The notes under the pieces are model-generated. The model saw nothing but the letters and a program-made list of their open reading frames with translations. It ran no database searches and had not been told where the DNA came from. Source: Thiomicrospira sp. XS5 (GTDB taxonomy: Bacteria; Pseudomonadota; Gammaproteobacteria; Thiomicrospirales; Thiomicrospiraceae). From it: 64,000 nt of DNA. Positions 29,522 through 32,661 of the stretch are shown in pieces (the stretch's first letter is position 1; the number at the start of each line of letters is the position of its first letter). The position numbers and the translations under genes were made by a program. Location of the stretch: assembly GCF_001507555.1 (NCBI RefSeq), contig NZ_LQBO01000001.1, forward strand, positions 744,001 to 808,000, read 5' to 3'.

Positions 29522-31180
<1,659 letters not shown>

Positions 31181-31322
31181 TTTTTCGCCTAGGGCGTTCA
31201 AATTTCAGCGATAACCGCGTTGGATTTGAACTTCCAGTGCTCATGGACTTAAATGTCCACGGCGCGTTGGTTTCAAATCCGCCTTGTTCTCATCTAAAAT
31301 TTGTACCGCCTAGGCTGAAAAA
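31181..31322. repeat. Nested inverted-repeat element downstream of groEL
   Basis: The ends are inverted repeats: TTTTTCGCCTAGG (31181-31193) against CCTAGGCTGAAAAA (31309-31322), with one unpaired base. Inside are CAAATTT (31199-31205) against AAATTTG (31297-31303), GGATTTGAA (31222-31230) against TTCAAATCC (31272-31280), and TGGAC (31244-31248) against GTCCA (31255-31259). The four arm pairs are nested in order, so the 142-base unit could fold as one long interrupted hairpin. It begins at the first base after the groEL stop. It could be a small non-autonomous mobile element or a structured 3' UTR. No open frame of interest was seen in it. Confidence 0.6.
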
Positions 31323-31341
31323 TCATTTCAGCTCATTCTCA

Positions 31342-31369
31342 AAGGCCAGCTTATGCTGGCCTTTTTTAT
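31342..31369 (+). terminator. Intrinsic terminator of groESL
   Basis: AAGGCCAGC (31342-31350) pairs with GCTGGCCTT (31355-31363) over loop TTAT, followed by TTTTATT. Confidence 0.9.
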
Positions 31370-31432
31370 TGGGGCGCGCGCATCGATAAGTCGTTTAGGT
31401 GCGTTTCATCCCCAAGATTTGCTAAAAAATTT

Positions 31433-31459
31433 AAAAGCCCGCTTTGTGCGGGCTTTTTT
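31433..31459 (+). terminator. Second terminator downstream of groEL
   Basis: AAAAGCCCGC (31433-31442) pairs with GCGGGCTTTT (31448-31457) over loop TTTGT, with a T tail. It is a strong terminator with no protein-coding gene between it and the preceding terminator. Confidence 0.85.
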
Positions 31460-31494
31460 GTGTCTGACGTTTAGGCGGGGTTATCAGAGAATTG

Positions 31495-31506
31495 GCCAGG
31501 CCTGGC
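31495..31506. repeat. CCAGGCCTGG motif copy (intergenic, before argC)
   Basis: GCCAGGCCTGGC, a 12-base palindrome. No T run follows directly, so it does not look like a terminator here. Confidence 0.85.
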
Positions 31507-31611
31507 GGTTTTGTTTGAAAGGGCGTTATGCTTTGAAAGCGAAAATGCTAAAATATTTACCTTGTCATTTTGTAACGAAATAAACCGGCGCTAGGGCCGA
31601 ATGGTTGGAAT

Positions 31612-32661
31612 ATGGAAAACGCAACAGTCAAAATAGGAATCGTTGGAGGAACCGGTTATACGGGGGTGGAATTACTGCGCTTGCTGGCCAGTCACCCGAA
31701 TGCGGATGTCGTCGCCATCACTTCTCGAAGCGAAGCGGGCATGCCGGTCGCGGAATTGTTCCCGAACCTACGCGGTCATTATGATTTGGCGTTTTCCGAG
31801 CCGTCGCCGGCGGTTTTGAAAGGCTGTGATGTTGTATTCTTTGCCACGCCGCACGGTGTCGCCATGAGTATGGCCAAAGAACTGATGGCGGCTGGCGTAA
31901 AAATCATCGACTTGGCAGCGGACTTCCGGATTGAAGACATGCAGGCCTGGTCAAAATGGTATGGCATGGAACATGCCTGCCCGGATGTGATGCCACAGGT
32001 CGCTTACGGTTTACCGGAGCTGTTCCGGGAAGACATCCAGCAAGCGCAAGTGATCGCTAATCCGGGCTGCTACCCAACCAGTATTTTGTTGGGGGCGGTA
32101 CCGTTTTTGAAAGCCGGTCTGGTCAAAACGGACGGCATTATTGCCGACGGTAAATCCGGTGTCAGCGGTGCCGGTCGTGGGGCAAAAGTCGCCATGCTGG
32201 GCGCGGAGATGAGCGAAAGCTTTAAGGCTTATGGCGCGGCCGGGCATCGTCATCTACCGGAAATGTTGGAAAAGCTGCAGCAGCAAGCCGGTGCGCCGGT
32301 GGATTTGACCTTTGTGCCGCATTTGGTACCGATGGTGCGCGGCATGGAGTCCAGCATTTACATGACCTTGACGCAAGACGTTTCCCAAGCCGAATTGCAA
32401 TCGGTGCTGGAAGCGGCTTACGCTGACGAACCGTTTGTGGATGTGATGCCGGCGGGCAGTTTGCCGGAAACGCGGATGGTGAAAGGTTCCAATATGTGTC
32501 GTTTGGCGGTGTATCGTCCGGAAGGCGGCAATAAAGTGGTGGTGTCATCCGTGATCGATAACCTGGTGAAAGGCGCGGCCGGGCAAGCGGTTCAGAATAT
32601 GAACGTCTTGAGCGGTTTACCGGAAGACACCGGGCTGAAACAAGTGGCGTTGATGCCGTAA
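31612..32661 (+). CDS. argC: N-acetyl-gamma-glutamyl-phosphate reductase
   Basis: ArgC reduces N-acetylglutamyl phosphate with NADPH in arginine synthesis. The 349-aa protein has the Rossmann motif [17 protein letters not shown] at the N-terminus, the catalytic Cys153 in NPGCYPTS and a His-containing PHLVPMVRG segment. No other arg gene is adjacent. GCAGGCCTGG, one base off the dispersed motif, is read as Gln-Ala-Trp at residues 111-113. Confidence 0.97.

Follow-up and report, generated by a model that had tools for sequence, protein, structure and literature searches.

A long hairpin directly behind groEL in Thiomicrospira belongs to a dispersed family of palindromic elements, probably MITE-like in origin

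Results

A single long hairpin adjoins the groEL stop codon

The window, the whole 64,000-nucleotide stretch of Thiomicrospira sp. XS5 DNA that was analysed, contains groEL followed by a palindromic element and a terminator-like site, with the features listed here.

29534-31180, + strand: groEL (chaperonin; Pfam Cpn60_TCP1, PF00118, E 1.4e-76), with the stop codon TAA at 31178-31180
31181-31322, + strand: palindromic element of 142 nt, a single imperfect hairpin (fold z -6.0; covariance models R1 and R2)
31219-31222, + strand: conserved GTTG of the 5' arm, opposite CCGCCTTG, with a near-fixed T.G wobble (alignment A2)
31231-31270, + strand: apical core CTTCCAGTGCTCATGGAC-TTAAAT-GTCCACGGCGCGTTGG (alignments A1 and A2)
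31279-31286, + strand: conserved CCGCCTTG of the 3' arm (alignment A2)
31341-31364, + strand: intrinsic-terminator-like site 3' of the hairpin (consensus scan and sequence)

The groEL stop codon directly adjoins the start of the palindrome (31180/31181), and the coordinates 31181-31322 given by an earlier, sequence-only reading of this DNA are correct. That reading described four tiers of nested repeats. The pairing is real, the longest inverted-repeat pair (31181-31208 and 31294-31321) being 79% complementary, but the tiers are not separate repeats: they are successive helices of one long imperfect hairpin in a single register. Its judgement that the arrangement is unlikely by chance was borne out, as the minimum free energy of 31181-31322 is -53 kcal/mol compared with -31.4 +/- 3.6 for shuffled sequences (z -6.04), with none of 200 shuffles equally stable. 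A chance palindrome is rejected on these grounds and by the covariation of the arms described below. The inverted ends are likewise present, but the weight once placed on their CCTAGG motif was not upheld: it occurs four times in the window against 4.4 expected, and CCTAGG ends were rejected as a family hallmark, the conserved part being the apical core. The family form of this core is CTTCCGRTGCTCAYNTAC..GTANRCTSCGCTTCGG, and the window copy deviates from the strict phylum-wide pattern.

The terminator-like site (31341-31364) lies downstream of 31322, in agreement with the order proposed earlier, and from this order the hairpin should be part of the 3' UTR of the groEL mRNA, ahead of the terminator. 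None of the 29 Rfam matches listed over 30900-31700 reaches the gathering threshold; the best sub-threshold matches, to the Trp and Leu leaders (31356-31461), fall on terminators downstream of the hairpin. A second terminator-like hairpin was found by consensus scan on both strands at 31433-31457, between groEL and the next gene.

Homologous hairpins occupy the groEL site in two genera

Comparison of groEL 3' regions, which the sequence-only reading had proposed, revealed a homologous hairpin at the groEL site in 21 of the 62 genomes of the window's family, as found by reading groEL ends and by model searches. The groEL frame stands directly upstream in 19 of these, to which G062 and G031 are added, the latter with its hairpin behind a reverse transcriptase stretch. 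In a search of 55 genomes, the groEL end of G002 was 98% identical and that of G031, which belongs to another genus, was 78% identical over exactly this element. Five genomes of another genus have a related hairpin at the groEL site, with 76-83% identity. Thus, the earlier suggestion of a miniature transposable element holds as far as a relation to a mobile element is concerned, but not as a fresh landing. No homologous hairpin follows groEL in G005, G006, G009, G010, G021 and G029, where the terminator is present; the groEL end of G009 has a shorter hairpin besides its terminator. In G031, the ~3 kb that separate groEL from its hairpin hold a reverse transcriptase/group II intron maturase/HNH frame (L004, 3-1406) and probably represent a group II intron located at the stop codon of groEL. 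A group II intron at groEL is also known from Azotobacter. Hairpin-forming inserts of ~50 bases were noted by eye in two groEL copies of the family (L061, L071) and in two copies from Nitrosomonadales (L177, L219), at comparable positions of the 3' arm beside the core.

Two hairpin lineages were assigned by eye from alignment A2: lineage I with the window's own genome (G000), G002, G031, G057, G060, G062 and G079, and lineage II with G001, G004, G033, G056 and others. Each spans both genera, whereas the GroEL tree, built without G031, G062 and G008, follows the genera. Between the lineages, hairpin identity is 52.1% for G000-G001 and 56.3% for G000-G033. Because two such unlike lineages cross genera, replacement or repeated insertion at the one groEL site is possible. 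Within lineage I, the groEL copy of the hairpin changes more slowly than four-fold sites: the hairpins of G000 and G002 are 97.9% identical compared with 65.3% at groEL four-fold sites, and those of G000 and G060 are 82.5% identical compared with 43.8%, with a 3' flank of 51.1% identity. Replacement or fast change of the groEL hairpin also happens, as in G033-G078 (hairpins 67.4% identical with 18 two-sided changes; four-fold identity 64.6%) and G056-G065 (73.6% identical with 11 two-sided changes).

Diverged copies lie behind other genes and in other bacteria

Whether the hairpin has further copies in its own genome, as the sequence-only reading had asked, depends on the method. A plain DNA search of this genome yielded no second copy. 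Covariance model R1, built from eight groEL hairpins, scored the window copy at 126.6 bits (this copy is itself in R1) and the opposite strand at 38 bits; with it, a second copy in the own genome came to light behind purH, and 38 of the 62 family genomes proved to carry copies, up to 11 each. Model R2 was built from 62 non-groEL matches found by R1, without any groEL row; as its rows were found and aligned with the groEL-derived R1, it is not wholly independent of the groEL copies. R2 matched the groEL copy at 98.7 bits (E 1.6e-18) and, in the own genome, six places in all: groEL and five others, of which three lie behind purH (identified by NCBIfam), RuBisCO cbbS and cbbQ, and two are weak matches (E 8.4e-5 and 4.8e-4) with a different apex. 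The weak matches lie at G000:C1:362709-362833 (L160) and 1119654-1119756 (L161); the apex reads AATAGCT..AGCTATT in L160 and is similar in L161, and L160 sits inside a longer inverted repeat starting AAGACCTGTGCACGAG. Copies in relatives stand behind the gene for the RuBisCO large chain, soxY, efp, thiC, lpd and trpB, and also behind queA, ilvC, a gene for glyceraldehyde-3-phosphate dehydrogenase, gcvT and the gene for S15. The covariance models replaced a narrow first pattern with fixed loop length, which found 5 of the 62 genomes and missed the own one.

The core of the family is strand-asymmetric (GCTCAYNTAC...GTANRCTSCGC) and widespread. R2 matches were found in 127 of 274 genomes of the same class (E <= 1e-4). 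Across the phylum, 92 of 398 genomes have the core pattern, one of them 166 times; a reversed-pattern control gave zero. A scan of named genomes for the core returned at least 118 stretches, with 80 loci among the matches listed. Pseudomonas, Halomonas, Methylophaga, Chromobacterium, Mesorhizobium, Agrobacterium and Sphingomonas are among these listed matches, as are Desulfovibrio, Alistipes and other Bacteroidota, and Oceanirhabdus. At E <= 0.01, R2 recovers 75 of the 80 listed loci, a partly circular score as the loci were picked by the core pattern. Single odd phyla among the matches may be contamination, because many of the records, Desulfovibrio and Alistipes included, are metagenome bins; the Oceanirhabdus records carry strain names. 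A plasmid collection queried with the window element gave no match. A Mesorhizobium copy matched plasmids partially, in 32 rhizobial and sphingomonad records, none covering more than 80% of the query.

Most family copies examined lie in sense orientation just after stop codons

Placement relative to genes was examined at 61 loci chosen from the R1 family matches plus two own copies, with groEL copies excluded. Fifty-one are sense copies: each starts no more than 30 nt from the stop codon of a gene on the same strand, and the upstream genes fall into 24 families; 16 of the 51 are purH orthologues. One of the 61, counted among the sense copies too, has the end of an antisense gene close by, and ten have neither, including two within recG-type frames and the twin loci L122 and L123, which are alike. 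For the orientation counts, genes were called as plain ORFs, chosen greedily so that none overlapped, and each copy was assigned to the strand that carries the core sequence; some near-palindromic copies also match the opposite strand at a lower score. Copies that start with A or G after TA remake the stop codon upon entering TA (e.g., L139 and L144). As for the recG-type frames, the copy in L088 (1-2301, G018) is antisense within an open recG frame that has ~105 extra residues where solved RecG continues from 416 to 419; the frame in L127 (G031) was judged recG-type from likeness only.

Seven few-copy genomes of the phylum gave 13 sense-only and no antisense-only copies, with two both (n = 20), and another phylum sample followed by trend with seven sense, one antisense and six both (n = 20). 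A same-class sample gave seven sense, five antisense and two both (n = 20); element ends were set by default in 7 of the 20 rows in each of the few-copy and same-class samples. With a stricter core pattern, which kept only 23 family copies, database loci were 24 sense and 6 antisense, three of these both (n = 60), and other same-class loci 15 sense and 10 antisense, three of these both (n = 42). Thus, there is little or no orientation bias in same-class samples from other families.

The arms covary without a G.U excess

Two-sided changes were present in 56 of 60 pairs, with a covariation score of 0.521 compared with 0.131 for shuffled and at most 0.124 for slid alignments. The sequence-only reading had held that a lack of both a second copy and arm covariation would refute it; copies exist, and the arms covary strongly. 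At paired columns, G.U and A.C stood at 23:31 in 19 groEL copies, 123:126 in 62 other family matches, 89:94 in 58 same-class copies and 89:98 in 50 others, with columns of more than 30% of either excluded, as well as seven antisense A2 rows and one A4 row. For 19 tRNAs from the same DNA the ratio was 25:0, a weak control since ARAGORN favours pairs. The G.U excess over A.C expected from selection on a sense RNA fold is therefore absent in all four copy sets. The near-fixed T.G wobble is present in 54 of the 60 A3 rows that have letters there, in 56 of 58 A4 rows and in 17 of 24 A5 rows.

Among the closest hairpin pairs (G000-G002, G060-G062, G057-G079 and G001-G004) there are no two-sided changes; one-sided pairing-keeping changes or losses number two in G000-G002 and one each in G057-G079 and G001-G004. 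G000-G031 shows nine two-sided and three kept one-sided changes with seven pairs lost, and G033-G078 has 18 two-sided and no kept one-sided changes with six pairs lost.

Because the covariation is strand-symmetric, it does not prove a structured RNA. Of the earlier proposal of a long structured 3' UTR, the hairpin fold and the covarying arms stand, but selection of the RNA fold does not follow with G.U and A.C about equal. The equality means that the arms are complementary as DNA, through insertion history, DNA-level selection or template switching, and arm complementarity seems to be maintained at the DNA level.

Near-identical copies point to mobility

The highest-scoring copies of several same-class genomes resemble MITEs, with a length of 141-145 bp and long inverted ends. 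G182 has ten further near-full-length copies, 94-99% identical to the query copy and in unrelated places. Dispersed, near-identical, gene-less copies as in a MITE are thus seen in relatives, and the own genome has only six diverged places. Among eight G182 copies inspected, TTAA or CTAG flanks both sides in four and CTAA in a fifth, and three have no matching pair of flanks. The window copy has inverted ends, and its right side has no clear TA duplication. In G229, one core with similar inner arms is joined to several different ends.

Convergent ends were searched in three genomes, using for each a single end sequence of 15-17 bases and allowing at most one mismatch, and paired by hand in G229 and G054. 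Of the 12 convergent pairs in G182, 11 span 139-141 bp, and the remaining one, with nested palindromes, spans 675 bp; the 18 pairs of G229 span 141-164 bp and the 16 of G054 span 140-158 bp. Apart from the 675-bp pair, none has the size of an insertion sequence. Unpaired end sites amounted to 5 of 29 in G182, 1 of 37 in G229 and 24 of 56 in G054. No autonomous insertion-sequence partner sharing these ends was found in G182, G229 or G054, and for this reason the element is called MITE-like and not a member of a MITE family. At one G182 locus (L366, 320-1000), reading by eye shows two other palindromes with differing ends that interrupt the apex of an element; the second of these inserts carries the variant core GCTCATGTAG..CTACATTTCGCTC.

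Discussion

Origin and possible function of the groEL hairpin

The results establish a dispersed element family that has amplified recently in one genome or more and that, in the window's family, is placed in sense just after stop codons. We consider it likely that the groEL hairpin is an old, fixed MITE-like insertion at the stop-codon TA, since retained. The element, approximately 120-150 bp with a conserved strand-asymmetric hairpin core and variable complementary arms, would descend from an ancestor that transposed by a TA-duplicating mechanism. Upon entering the TA of a stop codon, an element beginning with A or G would restore TAA or TAG, and because the stop is remade such insertions would be harmless and survive. 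The groEL copy would then have been kept by descent as a long 3' UTR hairpin before the terminator. Several observations fit this account poorly: no transposase could be tied to the element in G182, G229 and G054; there is no clear right-hand TA at the window copy, and three of eight G182 copies are without matching flanks; the differing ends on one core in G229 are unusual for a MITE; in the same-class samples taken from other families, orientation bias is slight or absent; and two unlike groEL hairpin lineages cross genera. That the element is placed only in sense suggests that its core acts strand-specifically; protection or processing of the mRNA 3' end is a tentative first guess for this effect and falls somewhat short of an even chance.

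A bona fide structured 3' UTR RNA, its sense fold selected as a 3' end stabiliser or an RNase or protein site and spread by duplication, is a less probable but serious alternative. It would account for the sense placement (51 of 61 copies behind 24 gene families; 13:0 with two both among the 20 in seven few-copy genomes), the slow change of the groEL copy with only one-sided pairing-keeping changes or losses in the closest pairs, the conserved sense-strand U.G wobble and the fold z of -6. Against it, G.U and A.C are about equal in all sets, no Rfam match over the hairpin reaches threshold, and a terminator-like hairpin is already present behind the groEL message.

It is unlikely that the covariation is mutational, with template switching within the quasi-palindrome copying changes from arm to arm so that an inert element mimics a conserved structure. 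At larger distances (G000-G031 and G033-G078), two-sided changes do exceed kept one-sided ones with no G.U excess, but none occurred in the four closest pairs compared, and template switching leaves the conserved core, the sense placement and a change rate below that of four-fold sites unexplained.

A broader proposal, which we regard as quite unlikely and speculative, is that the core is the recognition site of a mobility system acting on a folded single strand, which swaps terminal repeats and delivers sense hairpins behind stops, and that in several lineages the hairpin has been kept there as a standard module at the mRNA ends of central genes (groEL, RuBisCO, purH and trpB), the core being common to Pseudomonadota, Bacteroidota, Bacillota and Desulfovibrio records. 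More doubtful still is a folded single-strand DNA recombination site like the attC of integrons, with the core on one folded strand as recognition site, arms that would have to be complementary only as DNA, and strand-specific insertion. Strand-symmetric arm covariation combined with a strand-asymmetric conserved core, sense copies behind stops and one core with several end types in one genome all agree with such a site, whereas attC R boxes are absent by eye in A2, several G182 copies are flanked TA-type as in a DDE-type MITE, and the same-class sample has no clear orientation bias (7:5 of 20). A recent MITE landing at groEL in this strain, which the palindrome with inverted ends directly after the stop might suggest, has next to no probability and is refuted by the same-site hairpins in the nearest relative (98%) and in five genomes of another genus (76-83%), and the own genome is without a close DNA copy.

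One palindromic core spans records from rhizobia to Bacteroidota, yet no Rfam family covers the window copy. If the sense placement is functional, an overlooked mRNA module of mobile origin would be present in many central operons, both in the window's family, a family with RuBisCO and sox genes, and in other bacteria. If not, strong covariation without evident RNA selection serves as a warning for computational RNA discovery, and the G.U/A.C count helps to separate these two cases.

Comparison with known palindromic elements

A literature search for the core strings, repeats, MITEs, RIME and Bru-RS, with subscription literature poorly covered, gave no description of the core among the matches listed. 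The attC sites are hairpins behind stop codons with variable complementary arms, conserved unpaired bases and the boxes RYYYAAC ... GTTRRRY. Unlike these, the present element shows no R boxes by eye in A2, has GTTG in its 5' arm and CGCCT in its 3' arm, and lies behind housekeeping genes, not cassettes. ERIC and REP sequences are intergenic palindromes that often lie between operon genes. The element is also an intergenic palindrome, a likeness drawn by description only, and REPs are smaller, at 20-40 bp (PMC3733652). Bacterial MITEs are described as short, gene-less and dispersed with terminal inverted repeats (PMC10969869), and the element resembles them in being short, gene-less and dispersed, with long inverted ends. 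Coxiella QMITE2, 150-190 bp in length, has direct repeats of 7-11 bp as well as a GTAG palindrome, and some of its copies overlap the C-terminal ends of genes (PMC5896051). By comparison, the element is 140-145 bp (G182-type), with TA-type flanks in several copies, an asymmetric conserved core and ends that vary within a genome. The Rickettsia palindromic elements are palindromes of ~150 bp, some of them in frame within genes (PMC10969869). One copy of the element within the open recG frame resembles these by description, whereas most copies examined in the window's family lie behind stop codons.

The rhizobial RIME (Rhizobium-specific intergenic mosaic elements), on which Osteras reportedly published in 1995, are palindromic intergenic repeats of ~108 bp. 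Mesorhizobium, Agrobacterium and relatives carry the core of the element, which is likened to RIME by description only. RIME are named for rhizobia, whereas this core reaches far beyond them, and RIME may be the rhizobial branch of this element family.
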